Shown: piece after piece, positions 14,409 to 62,914 of the stretch
Numbering within the stretch: position 1 is the stretch's first letter
Layout of the letters: each line of letters begins with the position of its first letter
NCBI RefSeq assembly: GCF_029338515.1
Contig: NZ_CP119988.1
Span: forward strand, 3,224,001 to 3,288,000
Direction: 5' to 3'
Length of the DNA: 64,000 nucleotides
DNA from: Haloglomus litoreum
GTDB lineage: Archaea; Halobacteriota; Halobacteria; Halobacteriales; Haloarculaceae
Position numbers and translations under genes: made by a program
The notes under the pieces: model-generated
Seen by the model: the letters and a program-made list of their open reading frames with translations, nothing else
Told to the model about the DNA's origin: nothing
The model's database searches: none

Positions 14409-14876
14409 TTAGTTAGCCTCCGGTCCAGTCCACTTTCCGAGCGTAGCCGTGTCGCCACCGTTCGAGGATTCCCAGACAACGCGGACCGTATCACTGTTGT
14501 CTGCATCAACCGTGGCGGTATCACCGGCAGTTACGTCGTTTGACCATCCCGATGGGCTCTCGATAGTGTCGGTTCCATCAGTGACGGAGAGCTGCGAGAC
14601 AGCAATCCCGTCACCACCATCATGCGTGATGCTCAGTTCACCACTGTCGGAGTTGTCACCATTATTTGCCAGTTCGCTTGTGTCAGTGACTGATACACTG
14701 CCGTCGAAGTCGAACGTGAAGCTCGCGGTCGGACTCGTGTTCGAGACCTGGTCCCCGAGACCGAGCACGAACGTGCCGATAACGGCGGCCAGGATGACGG
14801 TTATCGCGACCATCAGGATGACCCCGATGACCGGCGACACCGCGTCGTCGTCGCCAAGTAGGTTGTTGAGTTTCAT
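14409..14876 (-). CDS. Type IV pilin, element array gene 3 (promoter-proximal)
   Basis: A 155-residue pilin starting [18 protein letters not shown], closest in size and position to the promoter-proximal chromosomal pilin at 4004-4477. It ends WTGPEAN. The leader before its ATG is nearly identical to that of the chromosomal array. Pilins carried by a mobile element could change host adhesion, aggregation or virus susceptibility; this is inferred. Confidence 0.9.
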
Positions 14877-16388: not shown

Positions 16389-16533
16389 CTCCGGACGGGC
16401 GTATCAATCCCCGCGTTCCAGTGAGCGAGTATCCTGTGAACCCGCTCACTCATCGGCCGATTCGGGGGTGAACCCGCCTCAATCACCGCGCCCACCCCAG
16501 CGTTTGTGCCGGTCTACACCAGACAAGACGCTC

Positions 16534-17139
16534 ATGGTTCGCGTGGACGATGGCGGCGACGTGACGAAGTGCTGGCTCGACCAGGAGGAACTCTCCCGGC
16601 TGGAACGGGTGGCCGGTCGCGACGACTGGATGCGCGAGGTGGCCATCCAGTTGATGGGCCGGTGCGGCCTGCGCGCTCACGAAGTGCCGTACCCGGCCGA
16701 CGAGCATCTCCGCTGGAGCGAGGAGGGCGAGTGTTGGCTGTTCGAGGTCCGGGGCAAGAACACGAGCGGCGGCGACCGGAAGCTCCGCGACGCCTGGATG
16801 CCTGACCGCGTCGCCGAGGACCTGAACAAGTACACGCGAGAGCGCGACCTCGGCCGGGGCGACCCGTGGGTCCCGCGCTCGACGCCGACGGTGCGGCGCT
16901 GGGTCGACACCGCGACGGACGACATCGCCGACCAGTTGGGCGACGACCGCTGGCGGTCGGTGACCAGCCACGATCTCCGCCGCAGCTGGGCGACCCACCA
17001 CCTCGTCGAGGAGGGCCGAGACGTACGGACCATGATGTCCATCGGTGGCTGGAGTGACTACTCGGCCATCGAGCCGTATCTGAAAGAAGCGACCGAGGCA
17101 CGCATTGGCGAGGTGATGGGAGGCCCAGAAGCCCTATAG
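16534..17139 (+). CDS. Second tyrosine recombinase, short
   Basis: A 201-residue recombinase consisting of little more than the catalytic domain: Arg47 (RCGLRAHEV), Lys75 (RGKN), His146-x-x-Arg149 (SHDLRR), Trp173 (GGWSD) and the nucleophile Tyr182 (EPYL). It lacks the SAM-like core-binding half of the main integrase. The ATG at 16534 begins at the first plausible domain residues; upstream codons are in low-complexity sequence. Such short XerC-like proteins are common on haloarchaeal plasmids and may resolve multimers or invert segments. A GTGAGCG/CGCTCAC inverted repeat lies about 80-110 bp upstream. Confidence 0.85.
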   Translation: MVRVDDGGDVTKCWLDQEELSRLERVAGRDDWMREVAIQLMGRCGLRAHEVPYPADEHLRWSEEGECWLFEVRGKNTSGGDRKLRDAWMPDRVAEDLNKYTRERDLGRGDPWVPRSTPTVRRWVDTATDDIADQLGDDRWRSVTSHDLRRSWATHHLVEEGRDVRTMMSIGGWSDYSAIEPYLKEATEARIGEVMGGPEAL

Positions 17140-18258: not shown

Positions 18259-18603
18259 TTACGGCGCTTCGACCAGCACATCCTCACCGTCGCTCATCCG
18301 CATGAGATACAGCGACTCCTGGAGTTCGGCATCGAGCCACTCCCGGATCCCGGGCGGGAGCGTCACCGCGACCGAGTCCCCGCACTCACCCAGCGTCCGC
18401 TCGTAGTCGACCGCGTCCGAATCGTAGTCGCCCAGGTGAAGCGTTGCCCCCCGCTCGGCGTACTTCCCGGCGCCACGGTCGATTCCGACTGCCTCGCCCA
18501 CCGAGAGCCCGGCGTCGGCCACCCACCCAGGGTCCAGCGTCACCCCGTGCCGACGTGTCCCGAGACACATCAGCGAGCGAATAGAACAGTTCTGCGCTGA
18601 CAT
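18259..18603 (-). CDS. Duplicated AbrB/SpoVT-like regulator
   Basis: A 114-residue protein. Two stretches resemble the swapped-hairpin AbrB motif: RHGVTLDPGWVADAGLSVGEAVGID and DSVAVTLPPGIREWLDAELQESLYLMRM. The ATG at 18603 gives MSAQNCSIRS; a longer frame from 18684 runs into the tandem repeats. The gene is divergent from the membrane-protein operon, and four 11-bp repeats sit between them, so it is a natural candidate for the operon's regulator. The family call is moderate, from pattern only. Confidence 0.55.
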   Translation of the reverse strand: MSAQNCSIRSLMCLGTRRHGVTLDPGWVADAGLSVGEAVGIDRGAGKYAERGATLHLGDYDSDAVDYERTLGECGDSVAVTLPPGIREWLDAELQESLYLMRMSDGEDVLVEAP

Positions 18604-18669
18604 ACGATAACCGGAGAGGTCAATCGTAACAAATCCTGCGTCCAGAGCGACCGCAGACCGGCGGTTGTT

Positions 18670-18713
18670 GCACAGTATCTGCACAGTATCCGCACGCCAT
18701 CCGCGCAGTATAA
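18670..18713. repeat. Four 11-bp tandem repeats (operator array)
   Basis: Four consecutive units: GCACAGTATCT, GCACAGTATCC, GCACGCCATCC, GCGCAGTATAA. The 11-bp period is close to one helical turn, so bound proteins would line up on one face. It lies between the AbrB-like gene (start 18603) and the large rightward operon (start 18789). The last unit includes TATAA. Confidence 0.6.
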
Positions 18714-18788
18714 TCCGACGGTTGACACGTTATCTGGCCGTGGGTGAGCGGAAGTCCGTCGGTCGCCCCGGCGGGCGGAGCGCAACCC

Positions 18789-18971
18789 ATGAGCGCAACA
18801 CCAGAGAGCGAGCGTAAGCCGCTCTCGACCTCCTTTTCGCAGGAGGCACGACCCAGTGGTATCGACAGCGTGGCGACGCGCGCTGACATCACCTCGAACC
18901 TCCAGCTCGGCGACCTGGCAACCGTCGACGAGGAGCTGTTCGAGGTCTTCGACCTGGAGGGCCGCCGATGA
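18789..18971 (+). CDS. 60-residue leader protein of the membrane-protein operon
   Basis: Acidic, apparently soluble protein (MSATPESERKPL...DEELFEVFDLEGRR), no motif. The stop overlaps the start of the surface glycoprotein gene (ATGA). The ATG at 18789 lies about 75 bp from the 11-bp repeats. Probably an assembly or regulatory factor, or only a leader for translational coupling. Confidence 0.55.
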   Translation: MSATPESERKPLSTSFSQEARPSGIDSVATRADITSNLQLGDLATVDEELFEVFDLEGRR

Positions 18972-20530
18972 GGCGGCTGGCCCACAGCGGCTTCGTCGCC
19001 CTGATCGCCATCCTGCTCGCGACCTCGATGGTCGCCCCGGTCGCGATGGCCGATCACGACGAGCGCGAGAACGGTCCACCGCCTATCGACACGACGAGCG
19101 ACGAGAGTCCGCGCGTCTGGGTCGAGGAGACCGACGTGACCATCGCCGAGCACCGGATGGGCGAGCACGGCACGGACCCGCTCGCCTACGAGGCTGACGA
19201 CGGGAGCAACACGGAGCTCCCGGCAGAAGTGAACGCCTCAGACGCCGACGCACCCATCGAGGTGTCGCCGGCGTACATCGACGACCCGGACCTCTACGGC
19301 CCCGTCACCGACGACGAGGGTAACGTCGAGGACCAGTCGTTCGTCGCTGAGGAGGGTGACTGGGCCATCAGCGGGAGCGCCTCCGCGAAGGGCAGCGCCA
19401 CGGAGTGGTCCGACGCACCGAACTTCCGCGCGGCGCCGACCCAGCTCGCCACCGACGGCAGCATGACCGCCGGCGACACGGTGCTGTTCAACTACTCGGA
19501 CAACGTCACCCTGGACAACGCCCGGAAGCGGGTGCTCACCGTGGCTGGTGAGGTCAACACCCTCGACAGTGGCGCGCACGTCCGCTTCGAGATCGTCGAC
19601 AAGGACGGCGACTTCACCTACTCGAACATCTCCACCAGCGCCGCTGACGCGAACGAGGAGACGTTCGCGAACGAGACCGGCGCCTTCTACGCGAGTACCC
19701 GCGTCGACACGCTGGTCTCGGCGAACGGCGTCCAGGGCTCCGGCGACGGGACGATGGACGAGATCAACGCCGTCCGGCTGAACATCTCGGAGGCGGACGC
19801 TGACCTCGCCATCACCGGGATGGACATCTCCTCGAAGGAGACGAAGAGCTTCGCGACGGTCGCATACCAGGACGACTCGGACGACCGGTACGAGACCGAG
19901 ACGCGAACGAACGTCGACGGCGGTGCCGTCCGCCTTCGCTCGCTCGACGGGCTCGCGGACCACTGGGGCGACGCCCACGTCCACGACCTCGTCGTCGGCG
20001 CCGGCGACGCGACGGTCAACTACGGCCTGAGCATGGCCGACGGGTCGAACGTCACCATGACCGACGCCGAGGACTACGCCAGCTACTCCGACCGGCTGGA
20101 GGGCCAGCCGCTCGCGGTCTGGGACATCCCGGCGCCGGTCGACGTGACTCACGGCACGCTCGACCTCGTGGCCGAGCAGCGCCAGCCCGGCAGTCAGTAC
20201 ATCAGCGTCGACTACGCCACCGGCTACGCCGGCAACTACTCCGAGGCCACCACCACCGACGCGACGAGCCAGTTCAGCGGCGCCATCGGCGACCGCGTCG
20301 AGCTGGCGACGGACATCTCGGCGTCCAGCGACCACGACGCCGCAGTCGGGATGGAGATCGTCTACACGAGCTCCGAGGCCGACGCGGTGTACCAGTCCGC
20401 CCCCGCGATGGGCGGCCCGACCGGGAAGTCCGGCGGGTTCTTCAGCACTATCTGGGGCAAGGTCGCCGGACTCGGTGGCGCGCTCGTGACCGCGCTCGGT
20501 CTCGGGAAGATCTTCGGCGGAGGGAGCTGA
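18968..20530 (+). CDS. Secreted, C-terminally anchored surface protein (spike-like)
   Basis: A 520-residue protein. Signal peptide: residues 1-28 (MRRLAHSGFVALIAILLATS...AMA, then DHDE). An acidic ectodomain of about 450 residues carries many N-glycosylation sequons (NAS, NYS, NVT, NIS, NET). A Gly/Ala-rich hydrophobic helix (about 489-515) and no cytoplasmic tail follow. This plan (Sec signal, large glycosylated ectodomain, C-terminal anchor) is that of pleolipovirus spikes and of surface proteins of vesicle-forming haloarchaeal plasmids. It is the first large gene of the operon, followed by a string of small membrane proteins. No sequence family was recognised. Confidence 0.7.
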   Translation: MRRLAHSGFVALIAILLATSMVAPVAMADHDERENGPPPIDTTSDESPRVWVEETDVTIAEHRMGEHGTDPLAYEADDGSNTELPAEVNASDADAPIEVSPAYIDDPDLYGPVTDDEGNVEDQSFVAEEGDWAISGSASAKGSATEWSDAPNFRAAPTQLATDGSMTAGDTVLFNYSDNVTLDNARKRVLTVAGEVNTLDSGAHVRFEIVDKDGDFTYSNISTSAADANEETFANETGAFYASTRVDTLVSANGVQGSGDGTMDEINAVRLNISEADADLAITGMDISSKETKSFATVAYQDDSDDRYETETRTNVDGGAVRLRSLDGLADHWGDAHVHDLVVGAGDATVNYGLSMADGSNVTMTDAEDYASYSDRLEGQPLAVWDIPAPVDVTHGTLDLVAEQRQPGSQYISVDYATGYAGNYSEATTTDATSQFSGAIGDRVELATDISASSDHDAAVGMEIVYTSSEADAVYQSAPAMGGPTGKSGGFFSTIWGKVAGLGGALVTALGLGKIFGGGS

Positions 20531-20532
20531 AG

Positions 20533-20994
20533 ATGAGCGCGTCCGGTGCGGGTGGCCCCCGAGTCCGGCGGCTGTTCGACCGGGCGAAGAACGCCGGCTC
20601 CATCGGCGGCGTCATCTTCCAGGGCCTGAGCGCGGTGCTGCTGGCCATCGGCACTGTACTCGCGAGCGGCGTGTTCACGCTGGCGGATATCTTCATCAAG
20701 CCGGCGCAGTCGTTCGCAACCGAGTCGGCTGGCCTGGTCGAGTCGTTCCTCGGCTCGTTCGGCATCGTCATCGACTTCGGCGCCATCGCGAGCGCTCGGT
20801 CCATCGGCCCAGGCGGGCTCTTCGCGAGCCCGTTGTCGCTCCCCATCGCGTTCGCCATCATCGGGCTGTCCGCCTACGTGATCATCGCCATCACCAGCGA
20901 GGAGGAGACGACGAACTTCTTCCCGCTGATCGGGAGCGGCTTCAACCTCCCGACGCCGGGCTTCACCGACGCCGAAGAAGAGGAGGAGGGCTGA
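20533..20994 (+). CDS. Small multi-TM protein A
   Basis: A 153-residue protein. After a basic start (RVRRLFDRAKNAG) come a hydrophobic region (GVIFQGLSAVLLAIGTVLASGVFTLADIFI), a weakly hydrophobic middle and a second TM (PIAFAIIGLSAYVIIAIT), ending in an acidic tail (DAEEEEEG). It starts 2 bases after the spike-like gene. Possible membrane-embedded structural or matrix-type protein. Confidence 0.65.
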   Translation: MSASGAGGPRVRRLFDRAKNAGSIGGVIFQGLSAVLLAIGTVLASGVFTLADIFIKPAQSFATESAGLVESFLGSFGIVIDFGAIASARSIGPGGLFASPLSLPIAFAIIGLSAYVIIAITSEEETTNFFPLIGSGFNLPTPGFTDAEEEEEG

Positions 20995-20996
20995 CG

Positions 20997-21053
20997 ATGC
21001 CGGGCCGAACCACTCACGGCGAGGTGCGGCCGGGGGTGGTCCGGCGTGGTTAG
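20997..21053 (+). CDS. Possible 18-codon coupling ORF
   Basis: ATG at 20997, two bases after the previous stop, with the TAG at 21051 overlapping the next GTG start by 8 bases. It encodes a basic peptide (MPGRTTHGEVRPGVVRRG). It may be translated only to carry ribosomes to the next gene. Support is positional. Confidence 0.3.
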   Translation: MPGRTTHGEVRPGVVRRG

Positions 21054-21396
21054 CCTCAGCGACTTCCTCACGACCGGCCCGGACGGCTTCACGACGCCAG
21101 ACTTCGGCCGCCTTACCCAGGTCGGCATCGGCGCGACGTTCGGGGCGCTGTTCACCGGCCTGACGAGCCTCGTGTTCGGCGTCTTCGACATCCCGATTGC
21201 GCTGCTGGGCGGCCTCGGCGATTTCCTCACGAGCGTCGTCGCGGTCGTCGTCGGACTGCCGGGTGTCCTCGTCAGGGAGGGCTTCCTCGCGACGTGGATG
21301 TTCGTCTACGAGGCAGGCCCGGCTGGCCTCCCCGTCGCGCTGGGAATCGGGCTGACGGCCGTCTTCGTCTTCAGGTGGGTGGTCAGCCGTGCCTGA
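21046..21396 (+). CDS. Small multi-TM protein B
   Basis: A 116-residue protein with a GTG start. Polar first 25 residues, then long Gly-rich hydrophobic stretches (ATFGALFTGLTSLVFGVFDIPIALLGGLGDFLTSVVAVVVGLPGVLV) and a final TM (LPVALGIGLTAVFVFRWVV). Its 3' end overlaps the next gene by 8 bp. Alternating amphipathic and TM helices resemble those of proteins A and C, possibly paralogous. Confidence 0.6.
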   Translation: MVSLSDFLTTGPDGFTTPDFGRLTQVGIGATFGALFTGLTSLVFGVFDIPIALLGGLGDFLTSVVAVVVGLPGVLVREGFLATWMFVYEAGPAGLPVALGIGLTAVFVFRWVVSRA

Positions 21397-21856
21397 GGAC
21401 GATGGCGGCATCCCGCTCTTCCCGACCGGCGGCGGAACGGCAGCCCGGAGCGCCCAGTTCGCGAGCGAGACGGCGGACTTCCTCCGGCGATTCGCGAGCA
21501 ACCCGGCGGCGCTGGTCATCAGCGTCGTCTCGGGGTTCGTCGTGAGCGTCGTGCTGGGGTTCTTCGAGTTCCTGATCGGCGCCGTGCTGTACCCGTTCGA
21601 CCTGCTGGTCGGCGGTCTCAACTGGCTGCAGCGCCAGCTCGTGCTCGCGTTCGCGTTCGTCGGGTTCGACATCCTCGGCACACTGCGTGGGGTCCAGGAG
21701 TCGCTGGCCGTCGCCGTTGAGGCAGCCGGCCCGGCCGGTCCAGTCGTCGCTGCGGGCGCCGTCGGACTGGCGCTGTTCGTTCTGTATCGAGTCACCGTGG
21801 CCGGGCTGGAGTTCATCCCGGGCGGCAGCAGCATCATGGCACTTCTCGGACGATGA
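21389..21856 (+). CDS. Small multi-TM protein C
   Basis: A 155-residue protein, GTG start overlapping protein B. Polar N-terminus (PEDDGGIPLFPTGGG), then three to four hydrophobic helices (LVISVVSGFVVSVVLGFFEFLIGAVLY; LVLAFAFVGFDILG; VVAAGAVGLALFVLYRV). It shares the F-x-G-x-x-x-x-V-F/FDIL style of protein B. Overlaps the next gene by 4 bp (ATGA). Confidence 0.6.
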   Translation: MPEDDGGIPLFPTGGGTAARSAQFASETADFLRRFASNPAALVISVVSGFVVSVVLGFFEFLIGAVLYPFDLLVGGLNWLQRQLVLAFAFVGFDILGTLRGVQESLAVAVEAAGPAGPVVAAGAVGLALFVLYRVTVAGLEFIPGGSSIMALLGR

Positions 21857-22149
21857 CACTGACAACACAAGCACGAGAGGCCTTCGCTCACCCACTCACG
21901 CAGCTCTCGGCGCTGGTGAGTCTGCTGGGCGCGTGGGGATTCGGCTGGTTCGAGCCGGCCTGGACGTTCATCTCGGCGACCTCCAGCTACTGGTTCCCGG
22001 CCATCGCGGTCTCGGCGGGCGAGATCCTCCCCCGACTCGGCTACGGCGAAATCGCCGGGCCACTGCTGCTCGGGGCGGCCATCGCGTTCGTCACCGTCCA
22101 GCTGGACCGGCTGAAGGACCGTGCGGTATCCTGGTACAACAACCGATGA
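21853..22149 (+). CDS. Small two-TM protein D
   Basis: A 98-residue protein with two to three hydrophobic stretches (LSALVSLLGAWGFGWF; FPAIAVSAGEIL; AGPLLLGAAIAFVTV) and a basic C-terminus (DRLKDRAVSWYNNR) likely facing the cytoplasm. ATGA overlaps at both ends. Confidence 0.6.
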   Translation: MTLTTQAREAFAHPLTQLSALVSLLGAWGFGWFEPAWTFISATSSYWFPAIAVSAGEILPRLGYGEIAGPLLLGAAIAFVTVQLDRLKDRAVSWYNNR

Positions 22150-22223
22150 GACACATCACACACACTCAGACGGAGGAATCGCCGGCCGCGCTGAGCGGCC
22201 GAACTACCGGAGGTGGCGCCTGA
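22146..22223 (+). CDS. Possible 25-codon microprotein
   Basis: MRHITHTQTEES...TTGGGA, with its start overlapping the previous stop (ATGA) and its stop overlapping the next ATG (TGATG). The exact overlaps at both ends argue for translation, at least as coupling. No hydrophobic segment. Confidence 0.4.
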   Translation: MRHITHTQTEESPAALSGRTTGGGA

Positions 22224-22642
22224 TGGCGGAGCTGTTCGGCTTCCAGGTGCCCGGAGCGGTGACGCTGTTCATCATCGTCTTCGGTGGGTCGTTCCTGCTG
22301 CTGGCGGGCCGCTACATCGCGGCGTACCTGAACGCGCCGGAGTCGAGCGACGACCGGTTCGAGTGGGCGACCAACCGGACGGCCCGGTGGCTGGGGATGA
22401 TCTTCGGCGGCCTGCTGGCGACGGCGGCCGTGGCGATCACCCAGGGCGTGGACATCGTCGCGATGGGCACGCAGTTCATCGGGATGCACCCGTTCGTCGT
22501 CTCGAACCTCGCCGGCATCGGCCTCGGCGCCGGCGTGCTCTCGGGGAACATCCAGCTGACGACCGACCAGTACGTCGGTCTCGCGCTGATGGCCGTCTTC
22601 GGCACGTACCTTCTCTCGGAGGTGTACGGCGTTGACGGGTGA
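22223..22642 (+). CDS. Small four-TM protein E
   Basis: A 139-residue protein. TM helices near residues 8-30 (AVTLFIIVFGGSFLLLAGRYIAAY), 48-68 (WLGMIFGGLLATAAVAI), 80-102 (FVVSNLAGIGLGAGVL) and 112-133 (VGLALMAVFGTYLLSEV). Size and topology are similar to the four-TM VP3-type membrane proteins of pleolipoviruses, although I see no sequence signature. Overlaps the next gene by 11 bp. Confidence 0.6.
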   Translation: MAELFGFQVPGAVTLFIIVFGGSFLLLAGRYIAAYLNAPESSDDRFEWATNRTARWLGMIFGGLLATAAVAITQGVDIVAMGTQFIGMHPFVVSNLAGIGLGAGVLSGNIQLTTDQYVGLALMAVFGTYLLSEVYGVDG

Positions 22643-23003
22643 GTACGGCAGCCTCACGGAGTACATCAGTGCCTACCAGCGGTACAGCGGTGGGCCACCG
22701 ATTCCAGACGAAGCGGCTGAACGTCGTGGCGAGACCCGCAAGACGAAGGCGTACATCCCCGTGGCGCTGGCGGCGCTGGTGCTGGCTGCGATTCCACCAG
22801 CACTCCTGGTCGGTCCGACGGCGAGTCTGTCGAACCCTGGCCTCACGGTGCCGTACATGGCCTGTACGCTGGGTATCGCCTGGATGCTGATGGATATGCT
22901 GGGCGGCGCGGTCCTCGACTGGTACGAGGACGTGCCCCGACGCGGGCTCGACCGCGTCGACGCCGAGTACGGTCTCGCGGAGGTGAGCACCGATGCCGTT
23001 TGA
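22632..23003 (+). CDS. Small two-TM protein F (TTG start)
   Basis: A 123-residue protein. TTG at 22632 is the only in-frame start that keeps the N-terminus (MTGEYGSLTEYISAYQRYSGG). Two TM segments (YIPVALAALVLAAIPPALLVG; VPYMACTLGIAWMLMDMLGG), then a polar tail (EDVPRRGLDRVDAEYGL). Overlaps the next gene by 11 bp. Confidence 0.6.
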   Translation: MTGEYGSLTEYISAYQRYSGGPPIPDEAAERRGETRKTKAYIPVALAALVLAAIPPALLVGPTASLSNPGLTVPYMACTLGIAWMLMDMLGGAVLDWYEDVPRRGLDRVDAEYGLAEVSTDAV

Positions 23004-23307
23004 CCAGCTCCCAGCGGTCGTCGACGGCGCACGCTACGGTGTCGCACTGGTCACGACGGGCGTGCTGCTGCTGTACACCTACCGGCGTGTCGTCGCCGGC
23101 AGCGACGAGGACCCGAGCATCGCGCTCTCCTACGGGGGTCGACAGGGCTACGTCTCGTTCCTCGTGACGGGCGTGGCGGCCGCGGCGTTCGTCGCCGGCG
23201 GCTGGATACTGTCGCTCTCGCCGGAGATCATGGAGCAGCCAGCGCTGGCGCTAATCCCGCTCGCGCTGGTCGTCGGCATCGGCATCGTGGAGGTGCGTGA
23301 GTCGTGA
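22993..23307 (+). CDS. Small three-TM protein G
   Basis: A 104-residue protein: TM1 (GVALVTTGVLLLYTYRRVV), a charged loop, TM2 (YVSFLVTGVAAAAFVAGGWIL), TM3 (ALALIPLALVVGIGIVEV). The stop overlaps the next GTG (GTGA). Part of the continuous coupled operon. Confidence 0.6.
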   Translation: MPFDQLPAVVDGARYGVALVTTGVLLLYTYRRVVAGSDEDPSIALSYGGRQGYVSFLVTGVAAAAFVAGGWILSLSPEIMEQPALALIPLALVVGIGIVEVRES

Positions 23308-23864
23308 TTCACGGCTCGTTCGACGAGCGTGAGACGCGGTCAGCGGTCGAGCAGGATGCAGCCGAGCGGACGCTGGACCGCGACTGGACGCTGCTGGAGG
23401 CGCTGATGGAGACGAAGCAGCTCGGTCTCCTCGTGTTCATGCTCGTTCTCATCGGGGTGCTGGTGTACGCCGGCGCACGAATGGCGGCGACGGGCGACCC
23501 GCTGGTCGGCGTCGGGCTCGCCGGCGCGAGCCTCGTCGGAGGCGGGCTGCTTCTGGACTCGGTGCTCTGTGTCCAGACGCCCGCGCACGTCCACGAGTGT
23601 CGCAAGTGCCGCCGAGAGACGGACCGCTGGCGTGGACCCACCCGAGACGACCAGTGGGTCACCTCGCTCGTCGGGCAGCCCTCAGCGGCCGACAGGACGC
23701 CCTCGGCGACACGCTACGAACGGGAAGCCGAACCGCGGGCCTGGGCTGGCGAGGCGGAACCCGCAGTCCGGAAGCTATCCAAGCCGCGGTCGGTCGCCGC
23801 TGACCCACCATCGAGCGTCGATGGCGGTCAACCGCGCCCGTCCTCGGGAGGTGCTGGCGACTGA
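23304..23864 (+). CDS. Membrane protein with CxxC cytoplasmic tail
   Basis: A 186-residue protein, GTG start. A charged helix (residues 1-38) is followed by two TM segments (LGLLVFMLVLIGVLVYAGARM; LVGVGLAGASLVGGGLLLDSVL), then a soluble tail with HECRKCRRETDRW, a CxxC that may bind zinc, and a Pro/Ser-rich end. The stop shares one base with the next ATG. Could link the membrane complex to cytoplasmic partners such as the ATPase. Confidence 0.6.
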   Translation: MIHGSFDERETRSAVEQDAAERTLDRDWTLLEALMETKQLGLLVFMLVLIGVLVYAGARMAATGDPLVGVGLAGASLVGGGLLLDSVLCVQTPAHVHECRKCRRETDRWRGPTRDDQWVTSLVGQPSAADRTPSATRYEREAEPRAWAGEAEPAVRKLSKPRSVAADPPSSVDGGQPRPSSGGAGD

Positions 23865-24007
23865 TGGCGACCTTCGTCAAGGTCGATATGCGCGCCGTCG
23901 CCGTTCTCCTCATCGGCGGCGCCGTGCTGGCGGCGGTCGTCGTCGCCCCGGACGCCGTGACCGGTCTCGTCAACGACATCCTCGGCGCCATCCCGGAGGG
24001 GATCTGA
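23864..24007 (+). CDS. 47-residue single-TM microprotein
   Basis: MATFVKVDMRAVAVLLIGGAV..., one hydrophobic helix then a short amphipathic end. The start overlaps the upstream TGA (TGATG), and the stop is 2 bases before the next GTG. Like a miniature membrane subunit; unknown function. Confidence 0.6.
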   Translation: MATFVKVDMRAVAVLLIGGAVLAAVVVAPDAVTGLVNDILGAIPEGI

Positions 24008-24009
24008 AC

Positions 24010-25890
24010 GTGCGGGCACGCGTCGCTGCGGCGCTGGCCGCCCTCGCGCTCGTGGCGTCGGTCGTTCCGGCGGTCGCCGTCGCTGTCCCGCAGCAGGACG
24101 GCACGCCGACCACGACACCGACGCCAGCGACAGGTACCCCAACCCCGGGCGCGAACCAGTCGAGCACGCCTGCGGCCTGGATGTCGGCGTCGCTCGATCA
24201 GTCGCCGACGCCAACAGCGACGCCGACCCCGACGGCAACCCCCACCACGACGGCGACGGCGACCGCAACGCCGGCGCCGGCCCAGTCCAGCTCCGGCAGC
24301 GCTGCGGCGGAGCCCGACGGCCCGACCATCGAGGAGCTCTCCCGCGGCGGCCAGCCGGTCGCGGCGGACGCACAGAGCCTGCGCCTCGCCGAGGACCGCT
24401 TCTGGTGGCTCATCGCGTGGCCGGCCGGATCGAGCGGCGCCCCGGACAACTCGAACTGGAAGTACGTCGGCGCGCAGGGGATGCAGACGGTCAAGAAGAA
24501 CGAGGTCTACCTCCGGACGTTCGCGCTGGATTCGGGCGAGACGGACCTGAAGATCGCCTACTGGGAGCCGAAGACGCGCACGGTCCAGCGAGGCAACTCG
24601 ACCGATACCGTCCGCTATGCGGCCAACGTGAGCGTTCACACGCAGACGCTGGACTACCAGCGCGGCCGGCCGACCATCGAGGTCCCGCTCCAGCGCCACG
24701 AGAACCCGGTTCGCGTGACGATGTGGCTGGCCGACAACCCGGAGACGCGGTGGGTCTTCGGCCACCACTCGGTCGCGACCACCCAGTCGGCGGGCATCGA
24801 CTCGGAGGGCGACTACCTCCAGTCTGTCATCTTCGACTTCGGCTGGTTGCTCCTGGTCGGCCTCATCACCGGCGGGTGGTCCATCCGGAAGGCGATGGCC
24901 ATCGCCGGCGTGGGACCGCAGTGGGGCTACTTCCCGTGGGTCCTGGGCTGGTCGCTCACGACCGGCATCGCGCTGTTCATCGACTACAGCGGCATCGCGA
25001 ACTTCGTCGTCGCGAATCCGTGGGCGATATCGCTGTGGGTGCTCGTGCTGGCGTGGCTGATCATGCTGGAGACCTTCCAGCAGAACGTCGACAAGGTCCG
25101 CTTCGTCCAGCCGAAGGTCGAGGACGCCAAGTCGCCGCGGGGCGAGTCGGTCGTCGGCCGCATCGGCGAGTCCGAGACGACGAAGCGGGTCGTCAAGCTC
25201 CCGGACGGCGGCCACGCGGTCGTCGGCAAGGGGCCGCTGCGGTTCCTCTCTCGGCTGTTCGGACAGCCGGCGACGTTCTACAACTACGACGAGCGGGCGG
25301 CGATGGTCGAGGTCGACGAAGGCTCCGTCGACGAGAAGATCTACATCGACCCCGACGCCGAGGAGGTCCTCGACATCGAGCCGGAGGGCTTCACCTTCGC
25401 GTGGAAGCGGGCGGTCCCGAAGACGACCGACGAGGGCGAGACGGTCCTCGACGAGGATGGCGAGCCGGTCACGGAGTCGGCCTGGAACGTCGACCGCATC
25501 CTCGTCAGCTGTGCCGGCGCCGCGGCGGTCGGTGCGCTGGCGGGACTCGCACTGAGCCCGCTCGTCGGCGTCGGCGCGCTCGCGACGGCGCTGCTCGTCG
25601 GGATGCTCGGGCCGAAACACGACGCCTACGCACGAGCGGACTTCGCGCCGGCGCATCTCGATAGCGTCCACGCGTCGATGGTCGCCATGCGGCAGGGGAC
25701 CGAGGACGCGAAGACGTTCGAGGAGATGGAGCAGAAGCTCGGCGAGGCCAGCGTCCAGCCCATCAAGCAGGCGATGAGCCTGATGCGGGGCTACTCGGCC
25801 GGCGTCAACGGCGAGATGCACGAGGTCTACGAGGAGTTCCAGGACACCGACCCGAACACGAGTGACGAGGAGGTGCCGGCCGATGACTGA
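24010..25890 (+). CDS. Large secreted-plus-membrane assembly protein
   Basis: A 626-residue protein, GTG start at 24010 immediately followed by a Sec signal (RARVAAALAALALVASVVPAVAVA). Residues 35-110 form a Thr/Pro-rich, likely O-glycosylated stalk. An ectodomain (about 110-270) with NVS and NST sequons follows, then three to four TM helices (SVIFDFGWLLLVGLITGG to LWVLVLAWLIMLETF). A cytoplasmic domain (residues 360-495) comes next, then two Gly/Ala-rich TMs and a helical, acidic C-terminus (MEQKLGEASVQPIKQAMSLMRGY). The mixed topology suggests a central scaffold connecting the surface to the cytoplasmic ATPase. Family not recognised. It overlaps the next gene by 8 bp. Confidence 0.65.
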   Translation: MRARVAAALAALALVASVVPAVAVAVPQQDGTPTTTPTPATGTPTPGANQSSTPAAWMSASLDQSPTPTATPTPTATPTTTATATATPAPAQSSSGSAAAEPDGPTIEELSRGGQPVAADAQSLRLAEDRFWWLIAWPAGSSGAPDNSNWKYVGAQGMQTVKKNEVYLRTFALDSGETDLKIAYWEPKTRTVQRGNSTDTVRYAANVSVHTQTLDYQRGRPTIEVPLQRHENPVRVTMWLADNPETRWVFGHHSVATTQSAGIDSEGDYLQSVIFDFGWLLLVGLITGGWSIRKAMAIAGVGPQWGYFPWVLGWSLTTGIALFIDYSGIANFVVANPWAISLWVLVLAWLIMLETFQQNVDKVRFVQPKVEDAKSPRGESVVGRIGESETTKRVVKLPDGGHAVVGKGPLRFLSRLFGQPATFYNYDERAAMVEVDEGSVDEKIYIDPDAEEVLDIEPEGFTFAWKRAVPKTTDEGETVLDEDGEPVTESAWNVDRILVSCAGAAAVGALAGLALSPLVGVGALATALLVGMLGPKHDAYARADFAPAHLDSVHASMVAMRQGTEDAKTFEEMEQKLGEASVQPIKQAMSLMRGYSAGVNGEMHEVYEEFQDTDPNTSDEEVPADD

Positions 25891-26602
25891 GAGTCGTCGC
25901 CCAGCGCTACGGAAGCTCGCCGCTGACCAGCGGACGCTCGTCGAGGACCTCCACGCCGGGTTCGAGACCCGCGAGGATGTGCTCCTCTGGCTCCAGCGCG
26001 TGGCTGTGCGGTCGCTGGGATACATCCCGGACGAGTGGTTCCAGGCAGTCGCGCTGCGCCCAGATGTCCTAGACGATCTCGTCGGCGACAGTGACATCGA
26101 ACAGTTCCGCCGCGGCCAGCTCGGCGACGTGGTGCTGCACCGCGCGTTCCGGACCGCGTTCCATCGCGTTCGCGAGCGCGTCCACGAGTACACGGACTCG
26201 GAAAAGGGCGAGCAGCGCGAGGGGACGCCGGACCCTGAGCGGCAGAAGTTCATCGCGATGCGCCCGGAGCTGTCGGCGACGGACCGGGCCCAGCACGAGG
26301 CGCTGGTCGATCTCTTCGAGGGCTTCTCGGACCGCGAGGCCATCCGGCTGTGGGTCCACGACCTTCGCCCGGCGACCGAGGGCAACCTGCCGGCGTCGTT
26401 CCTGGAGTACTGCTGCTACACGCCGATGGGATACGACCCACTGGTCGCCCCACCGGACGATGGTCCGGCCCGGACCGCCCGCGAGAACCTCGCGGCGACG
26501 GTGCTACTGCCGGCGATGAACCGCGGCATCCGCACACTGCAGTCGGGCGCTGAGGAGACGGTCGAGACCGTGACCGACAGCCACGAGCCTCTCTCTACCT
26601 GA
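25883..26602 (+). CDS. Soluble helical protein before the ATPase
   Basis: A 239-residue charged, helical protein without TM segments (LRKLAADQRTLVEDLHAGFETREDVLLWLQRVAVRSLGYIP...). Two stretches look internally repeated: RTLVEDLHAGFETREDVLLWLQRV and EALVDLFEGFSDREAIRLWVHDL, suggesting a duplicated domain. It overlaps the scaffold gene and ends one base before the ATPase start, so it is likely a cytoplasmic partner of one or both. Confidence 0.6.
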   Translation: MTESRRPALRKLAADQRTLVEDLHAGFETREDVLLWLQRVAVRSLGYIPDEWFQAVALRPDVLDDLVGDSDIEQFRRGQLGDVVLHRAFRTAFHRVRERVHEYTDSEKGEQREGTPDPERQKFIAMRPELSATDRAQHEALVDLFEGFSDREAIRLWVHDLRPATEGNLPASFLEYCCYTPMGYDPLVAPPDDGPARTARENLAATVLLPAMNRGIRTLQSGAEETVETVTDSHEPLST

Positions 26603-26603
26603 T

Positions 26604-27932
26604 ATGAGTCAGACACGACAACGCACACGACTGGACGGCACCGCCGGTAAGAGCGACGTTCGCGAGTGGATTCGCGAGGAGTTTCAGGCTCACACGTCCT
26701 CGAAGCAGGCGTACTACCACGACTCCGGCGGCTCGTTCGGCCTCGACGCGCAGCGGAATCGCCACCACGACGGCGAGTCCATCTACCAGCACTTCGGCGC
26801 GAAGCCGTTCTGGAAGGTCCTCGAGAAGATCGAGGCGTCGAACCACCCGGCCTACCGCTACCCGAGCGCGTACCTGAACGCGCTTATCCACGTCTCGGAC
26901 GCGGATATCTGGGCACTGGAGCGTGGCGACCTCGACCGGTTCTCCGATGAACCCGAGACCCGCCAGCGGGTGATGGAGTGGCTCGCGAAGCCCGAGAACC
27001 GCGACATCCTGGACGCGATGGACGACGGCGGTATCGGGTGGCACGCCCACTCGAAGCCAGGGAAGGGCAAGACGAGCGCGGCGAACTTCCTGTGCGGCGC
27101 CCGGATGACGGAGATCAACAACGAGACCGTCCTCTGGCAGCTGACGCTCGACGAGTGCGAGATCCTCCCGCTGGCCCCCTACGTCACGCTGGCGATGCCG
27201 GCCGGTGTCGACGTGCGGCTCATGGCAGTGCCGAGGGACGATTCGCTCCCGCGGGTCGAGATCGACCCGACCGATGTCTTCCGTGACACGCTCACGTACA
27301 CGGACCCGGTCGACCTGCTGGAACAGACCTGTCCAGGCGCCATCTACGGCGTGCTGCCGGACCCGAAGTTCCGTGGGTGCGAGGAGCTGGTCGAGGCCTC
27401 GTTCACCTCGGCGTGGCAGGCCGAGGACACCGAGGAGAACACGGGCCTCGTCGAGTGGATGCACGGGCTCGTCCACGCCCGAGCGAAGAAGGACGTGACG
27501 CTGCACCCGACGACGGCGGTCATCGACGAGGCGGGCGACATGCTGCCGATTCGCCCGGAGAACGATGCCAACGACACGAAGACGAAGGTGAAGGGCTTCG
27601 CGGAGGCCTACGGCAAGGCTCGAAAGAAGAACTTCTCGTGCGTCTTCATGTCGCACTCCCTGACTACGTTCGAGGAGACGGTCAGGGAGAAAGAGCGCCT
27701 CTGGATGACGATGCCGGAGACGCCTACGCCGAGTGGGCGCCTGACCGGACTGCCGGATAGCGTCCCGATCAAGGGCAACTACGCCAGTCGCCTCTCGAAG
27801 GGGCAGGCGGTCATCTGGAACTCGATGAACTTCGTCGACATCCAGTGGCCGAACCCGTACCGGACCTACGGGTTCGAGGGCGAGATCTCCATCTCCTACC
27901 CGGAACGCGAGGTGGCGCTCCGTGATATCTGA
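26604..27932 (+). CDS. P-loop ATPase (HerA/FtsK-like, morphogenesis or secretion)
   Basis: A 442-residue ATPase. Walker A-type loop SKPGKGKTS at residues 150-158, Walker B AVIDEAGD around Asp308-Glu309, and a possible sensor motif in CVFMSHSLTTFEE. No TM helices. Order and size recall the single NTPase found after the membrane proteins in pleolipovirus genomes and the HerA/VirB4-like motors of archaeal secretion or DNA-export systems. Probably powers particle or vesicle assembly or DNA loading. It is the last gene of the tightly coupled run; a GC-rich hairpin follows 13 bases after the stop. Confidence 0.75.
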   Translation: MSQTRQRTRLDGTAGKSDVREWIREEFQAHTSSKQAYYHDSGGSFGLDAQRNRHHDGESIYQHFGAKPFWKVLEKIEASNHPAYRYPSAYLNALIHVSDADIWALERGDLDRFSDEPETRQRVMEWLAKPENRDILDAMDDGGIGWHAHSKPGKGKTSAANFLCGARMTEINNETVLWQLTLDECEILPLAPYVTLAMPAGVDVRLMAVPRDDSLPRVEIDPTDVFRDTLTYTDPVDLLEQTCPGAIYGVLPDPKFRGCEELVEASFTSAWQAEDTEENTGLVEWMHGLVHARAKKDVTLHPTTAVIDEAGDMLPIRPENDANDTKTKVKGFAEAYGKARKKNFSCVFMSHSLTTFEETVREKERLWMTMPETPTPSGRLTGLPDSVPIKGNYASRLSKGQAVIWNSMNFVDIQWPNPYRTYGFEGEISISYPEREVALRDI

Positions 27933-27944
27933 GCGCAGCACCAC

Positions 27945-27970
27945 CCCCGGATTTTCACCGGCGACCGGGG
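27945..27970 (+). terminator. GC-rich hairpin after the ATPase gene
   Basis: CCCCGG (27945-27950) pairs with CCGGGG (27965-27970) across a 14-base loop containing ATTTT. It may terminate or attenuate the operon before the second transcription unit starting near 28047. There is no clear T-run after it, so function is uncertain. Confidence 0.3.
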
Positions 27971-28046
27971 CTGCGTCGTCTCGGCGCGCTGACACGCCCC
28001 GTACGCGCGCGTGTTTAACCTGCAAGCGCGAGGGGGGTGGTCAGTC

Positions 28047-28340
28047 GTGGTGATTTTCGAGCTCGTCGAGGCCGTGCTGGGCTTCCTCGCCGAGCACGTC
28101 GGCGTCGAGCTCGGCGTGTCGATCAGCGCGCTGGCGCTGGTCATCGTCGGCATCTGGTACGGGCGGGAACTGTCGACGCTGCTCGTCGGCGCGGCGCGGT
28201 GGGTTCGCATCGGAAGCGTGGTCGTCGGCGTGGTCGCTCTCGTGGTCATCGGCGGCGTCACGACGGGTGCGCTCTCGCTGGACAGCGGGGTCGTGGCACA
28301 GCTGCTGGAACTGCTCGGTTCGGTAGCGGAGGGTCTCTGA
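28047..28340 (+). CDS. Small two-TM protein upstream of the adhesin-like gene
   Basis: A 97-residue protein. GTG at 28047 is preferred because a purine-rich GAGGGGGGT run lies just upstream. A GTG at 28011 would extend it by 12 residues. Hydrophobic segments: ELVEAVLGFLAEHVGVELGVSISALALVIVGIWY and VRIGSVVVGVVALVVIGGVTTG, ending in LLELLGSVAEGL. Small amphipathic proteins of this type resemble the operon's other membrane microproteins. Confidence 0.55.
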   Translation: MVIFELVEAVLGFLAEHVGVELGVSISALALVIVGIWYGRELSTLLVGAARWVRIGSVVVGVVALVVIGGVTTGALSLDSGVVAQLLELLGSVAEGL

Positions 28341-28344
28341 AACG

Positions 28345-30819
28345 ATGAACGAGACACATCACACGGACGACGGCGGAGGCATCGTCGAGGACAAACTGCG
28401 GCTGGCGGAGCTGGCGGGCCATCTCGGCTCGTGGCTCGCGGTCGTGACGACGATGGTGATGGTCGGCGCGGCGGCGGCCCGCGAGGTGAATCCGGTCAGC
28501 GCGTTCGTCATCGAGCACGCCTCGATGGAGACGTGGGCGGTCGGGACGCCGCTGCTGGTGTTCGCGGGTTTCACCATGCTGCGGTACGCCCGCGCTCGTA
28601 ACGAGGCGCCGGACGATCTCCTGAAGACGCACCACCTCGGCGGCCTTCTCGCGAGCGGCCTCCTCGCGGACGGGCTGCTGAACTGTTACGCGGTCGCGAC
28701 CGCGGGCCTGCCCGAGACGCTTCGTTGGTCCGTGATCGCGGGCGAGGCGGCGGCCGTGGGCGTGCTCGCGCTCGTCCTGATCGTGCGACCGGACCCGCGA
28801 CCGCTCGTCTCGGCGGGTCGAGATGTCACCAGTCGGCTGTCGGCTGTTGAGGCGCGGAGCGTGGCGCTGGCGCTGATGGTGGTCACGTCGATGTTCGTCG
28901 GTGCTGTGTCAATCTCCCTGGGACCTCTCCCTGCTGCGGATCGCGCGTCTGCTGCGGGAACCGTTGTTGACGATTTCGAGGACGGTTCGATTTCAGATTG
29001 GACTAAGGTGATTAACGGGCAGGCCTTCTCGGCAAGTCAGAATCGAGCTTATGAAGGGTCTTATTCGATGTTACATGATGGCTCGGATAACGGCGGTGGT
29101 GCGCGGATCACGAAAGACCTGAGTTCTGCAAATCCATCTAGTGCTTCTGCATGGGTCTACTACGCAAATTATTCGAGTTCAACACGAACATCGGCATTTA
29201 AATTGCGAAGCAGTAGCGGAAGTGTCGCAACCCGCGTAGAAGTCAAGGAATCGGACGGGAGTCTTTTTGTAGATTCGACGGATACCGGATTCGATATACC
29301 TCAAAATGAGTGGGTACGGTGGAAGTATAAAAATATTGATTACAATTCCGATACCTACACGGTAATAATACTGGACGCTGACGGAAATGAGATTTACAAC
29401 CAAACCGGCGTTGGCTTCGTAAATAGCGTTAGTGTAGAGCAATTCGCTGTTCTCGGAGGAAGTGGTGGCTATCAATATTGGGATTTCTTCGCAGTTGACG
29501 GGGCTGCTGTCGGCCAGCCCGTCTCTGGGACTATCTCCACGGCCGACGGCTCCGGGATCAATGGCGGGACTGTGGAATTGCTGGACTCCTCGGACTCCGT
29601 GATCTCCACGACGACGACCAACAGCAGCGGATACTACCAGTTCGATGCTGTCTCTGACGCAACGGATTACCAAATTCGCGCTTCGGCGTCGGGTTACCAG
29701 AACAAGACCTCGGATAGCTTCGATGTTGCCGGCGCCCCGCGAACTGTCGACCTGAAACTCTTCGAGAGCGGAACCTTCGTCCGCGAGTTCCAGCTCGACG
29801 AGGCCGCGAAGCAGACCTACCCGCCTTCGCTGTCGCGGCTGGAGGTCTACCGTTTCGACCGTGCTATCGAGTTCCCGCTGCCCGGCGGCACGACGTTCAA
29901 GGCCGGCCCTGGCACCTGGAAGGAGATCTCCGACAAGGACATCAACGCCTACGGGAAGGCGAGCGTCCGCCTGGAGGACGGCACGCCCTACCGCGTCGAG
30001 GTCGTCGCGACCAGCGGTGACCGCTCGACACGCTGGGGCTCGCTGGGCTGGCGGGCGAACAAGTCGGCGCCGGACCCGTACCTGATCAGCGTCGGCGACC
30101 AGGATGTGACGGCCACGCCGACCGCGACCGGCACGGCGACCTCGCCGACGGCCACGCCCGTCGCGACGGACGGCGGGACCAGCGGAGGAGGCGTGTCAGG
30201 GCCCGATTACCCTGGCCTGAATCCGCCGTGTGACCCCTTCGACCGGGACAACGACGGGAACCTCCAGGAGTGCCCCGACGGCGACGAGACCGACGGGCCC
30301 GGCTCGACCGTGACGTACACCGCGTCGGACGGGTTCGGGCCGCGCATCGCCGGGGAGTGTGTCCTCACGGACGGCACGACCGGGCTCCTCATCGAGTACT
30401 GGGACCCGTCCTACGAGACGACGAGCCTCACGTTCAACGTCTCGCACGAGAACAGCTCGTACAGCGGGGATCGGCAGTTCGACACGGCCGCGGGCTACGC
30501 GACGTGGTGCGTGGCCGACGCCGTGACCGGAAACGCCTCGGACGCGGCCGACGGCGCGCTCACGGGCAACTACACGGCCAACGGCACGACGTTCAACTAC
30601 ACCGAGTCGCTCCAGCAGTCGTCGCTGCTGGGCGGGCCGCTCGGCGGCGGTGGCGGCTCTGGCGCGGGCGGGGCGACGCCCGGGCAGCAGGTCGTCGGCA
30701 TCGGCCTGTCGGCTGGCGTGGGCTACCTGCTCGTCCGGCGCTTCACCGACTTCCGCATCAGTTCGGCGCTCTCGGGGGCGGTCTCCCGGGCCCGGTCGCT
30801 CGTGGGTGGTGGCTCGTGA
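28345..30819 (+). CDS. Large modular membrane adhesin with acquired LamG-like domain
   Basis: An 824-residue protein. Residues 1-190 hold four to five TM helices. Residues 205-385 (28957-29500) form a strand-rich, Ser/Asn/Tyr-rich module like a concanavalin/LamG carbohydrate-binding domain (VVDDFEDGSISDWTKV... at the start). Residues 390-475 form a CarboxypepD_reg/PEGA-like beta-sandwich (PVSGTISTADGSGINGGTVELLDS). A third ectodomain, a Thr/Pro stalk (590-612), a DRDNDGNLQE calcium-loop-like motif and a final TM (VGIGLSAGVGYLLV) follow. The LamG-like module is distinctly A+T-richer than the rest, as if inserted recently. Probably determines attachment to host or partner cells. Confidence 0.7.
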   Translation: MNETHHTDDGGGIVEDKLRLAELAGHLGSWLAVVTTMVMVGAAAAREVNPVSAFVIEHASMETWAVGTPLLVFAGFTMLRYARARNEAPDDLLKTHHLGGLLASGLLADGLLNCYAVATAGLPETLRWSVIAGEAAAVGVLALVLIVRPDPRPLVSAGRDVTSRLSAVEARSVALALMVVTSMFVGAVSISLGPLPAADRASAAGTVVDDFEDGSISDWTKVINGQAFSASQNRAYEGSYSMLHDGSDNGGGARITKDLSSANPSSASAWVYYANYSSSTRTSAFKLRSSSGSVATRVEVKESDGSLFVDSTDTGFDIPQNEWVRWKYKNIDYNSDTYTVIILDADGNEIYNQTGVGFVNSVSVEQFAVLGGSGGYQYWDFFAVDGAAVGQPVSGTISTADGSGINGGTVELLDSSDSVISTTTTNSSGYYQFDAVSDATDYQIRASASGYQNKTSDSFDVAGAPRTVDLKLFESGTFVREFQLDEAAKQTYPPSLSRLEVYRFDRAIEFPLPGGTTFKAGPGTWKEISDKDINAYGKASVRLEDGTPYRVEVVATSGDRSTRWGSLGWRANKSAPDPYLISVGDQDVTATPTATGTATSPTATPVATDGGTSGGGVSGPDYPGLNPPCDPFDRDNDGNLQECPDGDETDGPGSTVTYTASDGFGPRIAGECVLTDGTTGLLIEYWDPSYETTSLTFNVSHENSSYSGDRQFDTAAGYATWCVADAVTGNASDAADGALTGNYTANGTTFNYTESLQQSSLLGGPLGGGGGSGAGGATPGQQVVGIGLSAGVGYLLVRRFTDFRISSALSGAVSRARSLVGGGS

Positions 30820-30823
30820 GGAG

Positions 30824-30958
30824 ATGACCGTCGACGCGATTCTCGCGACGGTCGCCGAGCTGGGTGAGCACCACGCGCTGCTGGAGATCGTCGAGCGAGA
30901 CGGCGTGGACATCGTCCGGTGTCTCCGGTGTGGGCACGCGGTGGTGGTCGGGCCGTGA
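30824..30958 (+). CDS. 44-residue zinc-knuckle protein
   Basis: MTVDAILATVAELGEHHALLEIVERDG... ends with RCLRCGHAVVVGP, one CxxC pair that would need a second pair from a dimer or partner. The ATG is 5 bases after the adhesin stop, with GGAG just before it. Last gene of the rightward operon. Unknown function. Confidence 0.55.
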   Translation: MTVDAILATVAELGEHHALLEIVERDGVDIVRCLRCGHAVVVGP

Positions 30959-35069: not shown

Positions 35070-36006
35070 GCTCTGGTGAATCGCTTGACTGCGTCGGATT
35101 CGACCGTTAGAACGAGGAAGATGAAGCGGGAAACCGTCGATGCTCTATGTCGAAGATTTCCCGCTTCACAAGCAAAGCCGTCCAGTTAGCTAAAAATGCT
35201 GTTGGTGAGCGAGGCGAAGTCGCCGCCCCCGAAGGGGGTGGCGGCTTCGCCGAGTATGCGGTCGTGTCGCTGCACTGTCTGCGGGTTTACTTGGAGAAAT
35301 CGTACCGAGAAACACTCGATCTGCTGAGCGAGATGCCACAAATACTGGCCGAGATCGGCCTCGACGAGGCCGATCTCCCCGACCACTCGACGTTAGTGAA
35401 GGCGTTTGACAGGCTCAAGACAGCACTCTGGCGCGTGCTGCTCCGACTCTCGTCGGAGCTGCACGACCCGAGCGGACACGCCGCGATCGACGCGACATTC
35501 TTCGACCGCGAGAACGCCAGCAAGCACTACTGCCGCCGGACGAATTACCGCGTCCAGACGCTGAAAACGACCGCTCTGGTTGACACAGAAACGCAAGCGG
35601 TTCTCGACGTTCATTGCTCGACCGGAAAACCACACGACACCCACCTCGGCTGGCAGGTCGCCCGCCGCAACGCGGGCGACCTGACCAGCCTCGCCGCCGA
35701 CAAGGGCTACGACTGGATGGAATTACGCGAGAAACTGAGGGAAGACGGCGTGAGACCGCTGATCAAACACCGCGAGTTCCGGCCCATCGATCACGCGCAC
35801 AACGCGCGGATCGATGGGCCTCGCTACCGCCAACGATCGATGTGTGAGACCGTCTTCTCGGCGATTAAGCGCACGCTCGGCGACGCCGTGCGTGCGCGAG
35901 CATGGTTTCGTGAGTTCCGAGAAATCGTCCTGAAATGTGTCGTTCACAACATCAAGCGAGCCGTCACACCGTGAGATCAAACGCCCTCTGGCGATTCACC
36001 AGAGCC
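35070..36006 (+). mobile_element. IS5-family insertion sequence with 8-bp target duplication
   Basis: A 937-bp element bounded by perfect 16-bp inverted repeats GGCTCTGGTGAATCGC (35070-35085) and its complement (35991-36006). Both sides carry ATTCAAGA (35062-35069 and 36007-36014), the 8-bp target duplication expected for this group (ISH1-like). One intact transposase gene inside, so it is probably active or recently so. It abuts the 3' end of the methyltransferase gene. Confidence 0.9.
35147..35974 (+). CDS. IS5-family transposase
   Basis: A 275-residue DDE transposase: first Asp in HAAIDATFFDRENASKHY, second in LAADKGYD, and the final Glu in the CETVFSAIKRTLGDAVRAR helix (Y/E-R/K signature). 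Length and motifs fit the ISH1 group of IS5. The gene is complete, between inverted repeats with a target duplication. Confidence 0.9.
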   Translation: MSKISRFTSKAVQLAKNAVGERGEVAAPEGGGGFAEYAVVSLHCLRVYLEKSYRETLDLLSEMPQILAEIGLDEADLPDHSTLVKAFDRLKTALWRVLLRLSSELHDPSGHAAIDATFFDRENASKHYCRRTNYRVQTLKTTALVDTETQAVLDVHCSTGKPHDTHLGWQVARRNAGDLTSLAADKGYDWMELREKLREDGVRPLIKHREFRPIDHAHNARIDGPRYRQRSMCETVFSAIKRTLGDAVRARAWFREFREIVLKCVVHNIKRAVTP

Positions 36007-62912: not shown

Positions 62913-62914
62913 AG

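Follow-up and report, generated by a model that had tools for sequence, protein, structure and literature searches.

What is the function of a tightly packed operon of secreted and membrane proteins with a P-loop ATPase, carried within the genome of Haloglomus litoreum (4.695 Mb, one contig)? The operon lies in a 64,000-nucleotide stretch of this genome (the window, 3,224,001-3,288,000), and was originally predicted to hold at least 17 close or overlapping genes, to lack capsid, portal and tail genes, and to belong to no recognised family. All three statements are supported, the second for the element proteins scanned, with 17 ORFs found on the + strand at window 18,744-30,958, overlapping by 1-11 nt or spaced by 1-78 nt, and each with the haloarchaeal coding signature of high GC3 and low GC2. 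Their products are a secreted spike-like protein (spike520), many small membrane proteins, a 626-aa signal-peptide/TM protein (st626), a soluble 239-aa protein (sol238), a P-loop ATPase (ATP442), and an 824-aa surface protein (adh824); the lengths first given for the four large proteins (520, 626, 442, and 824 aa) are confirmed, the predicted soluble partner is the 239-aa protein, and both spike520 and st626 begin with N-terminal signal-like segments. The gene set is not a product of chance, because other genera keep the same set in the same order. The genes are as follows, with identities to a sister element of the same genome where given.

18,259-18,684, -, divergent small gene upstream of the operon, possibly an AbrB-like regulator judging by its position (AbrB-like ORFs lie here in relatives); no family match
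18,744-18,971, +, 75-aa first operon gene; 4-nt overlap with the spike gene; 61% to sister element
18,968-20,530, +, spike520, secreted, ~520 aa, rich in beta structure and hydrophobic at its C-terminus; nearly all loci have homologues
20,533-20,994, +, TM protein 1, 153 aa, first of five conserved small TM proteins; position kept in 16 loci
21,046-21,396, +, TM protein 2, 116 aa, paralogue of TM protein 1 (hhalign of families 97.9%)
21,389-21,856, +, TM protein 3, 155 aa; conserved across relatives' loci
21,853-22,149, +, TM protein 4, 98 aa; conserved across relatives' loci
22,223-22,642, +, TM protein 5, 139 aa; conserved across relatives' loci
22,632-23,003, +, accessory TM protein, 123 aa; no counterpart found in sister element
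22,993-23,307, +, accessory TM protein, 104 aa; 93% to sister element
23,304-23,864, +, 186-aa TM protein with Cys/His-rich segment; 55% to sister element
23,864-24,007, +, 47-aa hydrophobic microprotein
24,010-25,890, +, st626, 626 aa; family profile matches 72 of 391 genomes; structure model
25,883-26,602, +, sol238, soluble, 239 aa, start at 25,883; two tandem ~100-aa repeats
26,604-27,932, +, ATP442, P-loop ATPase, 442 aa; Walker motifs, weak Zot-like/FtsK-HerA-like signal, PHROG 22963 in relatives
28,011-28,340, +, 109-aa TM protein after the ATPase, from comparison with sister element and relatives
28,345-30,819, +, adh824, large surface protein, 824 aa; CarboxypepD_reg (Pfam PF13620, 2e-13)
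28,852-29,729, +, exchangeable ectodomain segment of adh824; GC 52%, PQQ-type beta-propeller here in sister element
30,824-30,958, +, 44-aa CxxC microprotein, last operon gene; 93% to sister element

Comparison of the operon proteins with Pfam, PHROGs, NCBIfam, PADLOC, and PDB profiles gave nothing informative except the CarboxypepD_reg domain of adh824, the weak Zot likeness and PHROG 22963 match of ATPase relatives, and a marginal mad8 match of ATP442 in PADLOC. From its structure model and sequence, st626 comprises a signal peptide, a Thr/Pro linker (~residues 22-102), a beta domain, TM helices, a second beta domain, and a helical C-terminus. The O-glycosylated stalk first ascribed to this protein is present in so far as the linker is Thr/Pro-rich, whereas its glycosylation had been predicted from composition only. 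The models of spike520 (mostly beta, mean pLDDT 63) and st626 (mean pLDDT 65) are too weak at these values to support any fold claim, and Foldseek searches with spike520 (viral library, PDB) and st626 (PDB) returned generic beta-sandwich or jelly-roll matches only, at low TM-score. The two repeats of sol238 are evident from the alignment of its N-terminal half with its C-terminal half (hhalign 99.3%, E 9e-21). Alignment of 16 ATPase homologues reveals Walker A, an invariant DE Walker B, and conserved Arg residues. ATP442 may tentatively be placed in the pumping-ATPase group (Zot/pI, FtsK-HerA) on weak family scores, with a Zot profile likeness in five of the 16 homologues (best E 0.004) and none for the window protein, which differs further in having no TM segment; PHROG 22963 is matched by relatives of ATP442 and by ATPases of other Halobacteriota islands. 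The large surface protein adh824 consists of an N-terminal multi-TM region, an ectodomain with the CarboxypepD_reg domain, and a C-terminal TM segment.

The element that carries the operon measures 42.38 kb and is inserted where tRNA-Val(GAC) ends (3′), with the att repeats, the tRNA site, and the adjacent integrase all consistent with the integrative element originally proposed. As assembled, the element is present as two tandem copies of 42,381 and 42,382 bp, which differ by one inserted base only; the operon genes are as first described, but the duplication of the whole element had been missed, and the operon restarts at +42,382. The landmarks of the element are listed below.

5,940-5,952, no strand, attL core TGGGTTGGGGCGG, left end of element copy 1; identical 13-mer at 5940, 48321, and 90703
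6,014-7,360, -, tyrosine integrase (SAM-like and Phage_integrase) adjoining attL; Pfam PF02899 4e-8, PF00589 7e-5
12,016-13,050, -, Orc1/Cdc6-type replication initiator of the element; Pfam Cdc6_lid 4e-12
16,531-17,139, +, REC201, small second tyrosine recombinase; several relatives also have one upstream of the module; Pfam PF00589 3e-10
43,129-45,165, -, DUF7845 protein of the element; Pfam PF25227 5e-63, blastp matches in genomes G237, G095, and G001
48,321-48,333, no strand, att core at the junction of the two tandem copies; identical 13-mer
61,126-64,000, +, second operon copy, continuing past the window to about genome 3,297,340; 18,789-30,958 is exactly identical to the copy at +42,382

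The third 13-mer, at 90703 in window numbering, is the 3′ end of tRNA-Val(GAC). The inserted base, an extra C at about window 49,067, frameshifts the integrase of copy 2 and leaves that of copy 1 intact; it may be an error of sequencing, or it may truly inactivate the gene and so stabilise the array. Homologues of the DUF7845 protein recur near the tRNA end of other elements, and a replication or regulatory role is possible for it. The element also contains a low-GC island (about 49%) at window 36,020-42,890, which resembles a defence locus, of restriction or another type, and comprises an Eco57I-type N6 methylase (36,023-38,404, -), a protein with two HATPase domains and a weak BbrUII/HgiDII restriction-enzyme match (38,526-40,988, +), and two genes without an assigned family; a DDE transposase (35,147-35,971) lies just upstream. 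Four type-IV-pilin-like ORFs with near-identical N-termini are found on the - strand, two outside the element (2,302-2,877 and 3,461-3,979) and two inside it (13,807-14,406 and 14,409-14,876), with pilin-like genes present on pHTUR05 and pNG100 as well.

A second integrative element of the same genome (99,739 bp, tRNA-Thr(CGT)) carries the same module at a nucleotide identity of about 82%, with 82-90% through most of the operon, and is likewise assembled as two tandem copies, here exactly identical (genome 1,185,736-1,385,227). These tandem arrangements may exist as such in the genome, or may stem from assembly where integrated and circular forms coexist. The predicted large adhesin is present, with a correction concerning part of its ectodomain: at window 28,852-29,729, inside the adh824 gene, GC content drops to 52%, from 70% on both sides, and this segment is missing from the sister element, which encodes a PQQ-type beta-propeller at this position (Pfam 4e-74); a third element encodes FG-GAP repeats here. 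Judged from sequence, such a swap of the adhesin ectodomain is what a recognition domain would be expected to show. Receptor-binding proteins typically exchange the tip while the anchor and base are kept, although other surface adhesins do so too.

The module extends well beyond Haloglomus, with the st626 profile matching 72 of 391 Halobacteria genomes (25 of 86 genera), and the ATPase as sole query matching 52 of 292. Gene order is kept in 16 loci, each with a spike (about 470-580 aa), at least 4-5 small TM proteins of conserved size, st626, sol238, the ATPase, and a surface protein of 700-1,280 aa, the last lying before st626 instead of after the ATPase in two of them. The spike, TM protein 1, st626, sol238, and ATPase diverge in step from locus to locus (Mantel r 0.30-0.82, p ≤ 0.04), and the module has thus largely been inherited as a unit. 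A homologous integrase was found in the 60-kb regions around the module in 12 of 13 relatives, and in eight of the 13 the 3′ end of a tRNA gene is repeated, as a copy of 13-17 bp, no more than about 200 bp from it, across the module. The elements so delimited measure about 21.6-34.6 kb and occupy tRNA-Ile, Lys, Pro, Ala, and Arg genes, giving a range of about 22-42 kb for elements with att-mapped ends, the window element included. The module accounts for 11.8 kb of the smallest (about 21.6-21.9 kb), the rest of which comprises an integrase, Cdc6, a small second recombinase, regulators including an AbrB-like ORF, and a DUF7845-like protein, with little space for cargo; capsid, relaxase, and T4SS genes were not recognised in it.

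Homologues of st626, sol238, and the ATPase are also encoded on circular plasmids of Haloarcula, namely pNG300 (NC_006391) and pNYT2 (CP019157), and of Halosegnis. On pNG300 and pNYT2 these genes, with small genes upstream, are annotated only as hypothetical; unlike the window module, these free circular plasmids have a 515-aa ATPase and an MCM/AAA gene inserted before it, and a spike520 homologue was not identified on either. Remote relatives of the ATPase occur in other Halobacteriota (L085 9,829-10,767, L086 9,609-10,457, and L088 9,570-10,625), with those of L086 and L088, the two tested, matching PHROG 22963. The regions around the remote ATPases (L085-L089) are island-like and lack the other module genes; those of L085, L086, and L088 have TM proteins and large secreted proteins, and are possibly further unrecognised virus-like elements.

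Scanning of the window-element proteins (small ORFs in part) against Pfam and NCBIfam recognised no capsid, portal, tail, archaellum, relaxase, VirB4, VirD4, VirB6, or other T4SS family, and no S8 protease; the matches to T4SS or archaellum systems that would have spoken against the original prediction did not appear. The sequenced phages gave no match in tblastn searches with the ATPase, the concatenated operon proteins, and two remote ATPases, and IMG/VR scans gave no relatives of the ATPase. Absence from IMG/VR is weak evidence, as apHPVs are likewise reported absent from it (PMC10818511). A description of the module was not found in the open literature.

Taken together, we consider it close to an even chance that the operon serves a family of haloarchaeal integrative plasmid-like elements as their conserved module for dissemination, most probably by way of membrane particles, whose formation we infer from the genes. 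That the module helps the element to move between cells is probable. This reading is supported by the integrative nature of the element (att, tRNA, integrase), the presence of the module in 25 of 86 genera and of its parts on circular plasmids, the correlated divergence of its genes, the weakly Zot-like ATPase and its PHROG 22963 relatives, the swap of the adhesin ectodomain, the share of the smallest element that the module takes up, and the scan of the element proteins, which brought up neither T4SS, relaxase, capsid, or portal families nor an S8 protease. The element would excise, replicate with its Cdc6 and other genes, and express the module, whereupon the small TM proteins, the spike, and st626 would assemble in the membrane. 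At the cytoplasmic face, sol238 and the P-loop ATPase would act together, probably driving DNA loading or extrusion, with the ATPase, sol238, and st626 moving DNA through or into the membrane; the spike and the large adhesin, its tip domain exchanged between elements, would then recognise the next cell. The most likely product would be a membrane vesicle or pleomorphic virion studded with spikes, similar in function to pleolipoviruses and pR1SE vesicles, and built from proteins without detectable homology to either. Against a particle count the lack of homology to any proven virion or vesicle protein, the lack of ATPase relatives in IMG/VR or sequenced phages, where a free particle might predict some, the size of the surface proteins, which at 800-1,280 aa exceed those of pleolipoviruses, and the weak scores on which the ATPase group assignment rests.

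The main rival, which we regard as rather unlikely, is a contact-dependent DNA transfer machine resembling archaeal conjugation, in which the TM proteins and st626 would form a channel, the ATPase would pump DNA, and the spike and adhesin would hold the partners together. Integration at a tRNA gene by a site-specific integrase, the assembled tandem copies, and the size of the element are all reminiscent of ICEs, a P-loop ATPase with a weak Zot/pumping-type signal alongside many TM proteins fits a channel, and the empty phage and IMG/VR searches fit such a machine at least as well as they fit a particle. However, relaxase, VirB4, VirD4, and VirB6 families, of which the first three mark T4SS-type ICEs, were not recognised by Pfam and NCBIfam among the element proteins scanned, and the ATPase has 442 aa and no TM segment. 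Archaeal conjugation is too diverse for missing Pfam matches to decide. We prefer a budding membrane particle, since most of the space in the smallest elements goes to the module and the scan recognised no family of conjugation proteins.

It is improbable that the operon encodes a surface system that benefits the element without moving DNA, through remodelling of the host surface, adhesion, superinfection exclusion, or protein secretion. Most of the products are surface or membrane proteins, the same element has an R-M/defence-like island, and modular tips are found in surface adhesins too, all as such a system would have it. Cargo, however, is usually dispensable and variable, whereas the module, P-loop ATPase included, is conserved as one block and fills over half of the smallest elements.

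The pleolipovirus-like plan noted in the original prediction is real, as the module and the Pleolipoviridae (HRPV-1, HRPV-3, SNJ2, His2) share an architecture of a secreted ~500-aa signal-peptide spike, small TM proteins, and a P-loop ATPase directly preceded by a ~250-aa protein, and SNJ2, like the window element, integrates into a tRNA gene by a tyrosine integrase. Homology to VP3, VP4, ORF6, and ORF7 did not emerge from hhalign of the module families against seven pleolipoviruses, in which links among pleolipovirus genera served as the positive control. Whilst the same method joins all pleolipovirus genera tested at 96-100% per gene (spike 100%; ORF6/ORF7 96-98%), the module spike scores 3.7% against the VP4 fusion spike, the five TM families 0.1-0.7% against VP3, and st626 and sol238, the candidates for ORF6/ORF7 between spike and ATPase, 0.1-14%, a range that also covers spike, st626, and sol238 against VP4, ORF6, ORF7, and ORF9. 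The ATP442 family aligns with the pleolipovirus ATPase (VP8 NTPase) at 94%, over 63 columns around Walker B only, a signal of the P-loop superfamily, and the two fall into different PHROGs (22963 for module relatives, 1979 for pleolipoviruses). Furthermore, a pleolipovirus spike was not recognisable among the 50 best Foldseek hits of the low-confidence spike520 model, the module elements are larger (22-42 kb compared with 7-17 kb), and they encode an extra 600-aa TM protein and an adhesin of 800-1,280 aa. A precedent for hidden kinship exists in the Archaeoglobus pleomorphic virus AvPV1, whose homology to pleolipoviruses is detectable only by sensitive profile comparison (PMC10919331). We consider a very divergent pleolipovirus lineage very unlikely.

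For the pR1SE type, represented here by pHTUR05 and pHALXA03 with their genes assigned to ORF numbers by position, kinship through the core genes is contradicted: the core proteins show no hhalign similarity to the four main module families, the sole value above 5% (72%) covering a 30-residue N-terminal signal-like segment, and no homologues of apHPV core ORFs 6, 8, and 9 or of the ORF17-25 cluster were found in the module. Each of these plasmids has an S8 protease adjoining a large ORF6-like protein, and the corresponding subtilisin-like S8 protease (ORF7) was not recognised among the window-element proteins scanned (small ORFs in part). Both are plasmid-like elements in which a cluster of signal-peptide and TM surface proteins closes with an ATPase, and both have a large surface protein bearing an exchangeable beta-propeller, and an integrase and Cdc6 or MCM nearby. 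Membership of the module among pR1SE-like apHPV plasmids is nevertheless extremely unlikely, given the S8 protease not recognised and core genes already at odds with those of these two plasmids. The window element differs further in its compact single operon and its tRNA integration.

The preferred reading, dissemination by membrane particles, leads to a broader proposal, which we advance tentatively: a third class of self-encoded haloarchaeal membrane particle, formed by self-packaging integrative plasmids with a spike, five conserved TM proteins, st626, a two-repeat adaptor, and a pumping ATPase, which would retarget by swaps of the adhesin tip, would be present in nearly one fifth of Halobacteria genomes, and has no detectable homology to pleolipoviruses or the pR1SE type. 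pR1SE is a known case of this way of life, in which an archaeal plasmid encodes its own membrane transfer; the proteins of the module are not known from it, and there is a sizeable chance that the module is a separate class. It occurs in 72 of 391 Halobacteria genomes, yet its main proteins fall into no Pfam or NCBIfam family, and structural comparison gave no relative for them. The plasmid-bearing strains Haloarcula marismortui (pNG300) and H. taiwanensis (pNYT2) make the idea of a transfer particle directly testable. If the modules do form transfer particles, haloarchaea may have evolved the plasmid-vesicle or pleomorphic-virus lifestyle on more than two occasions, and much of their gene transfer would use an unrecognised route.
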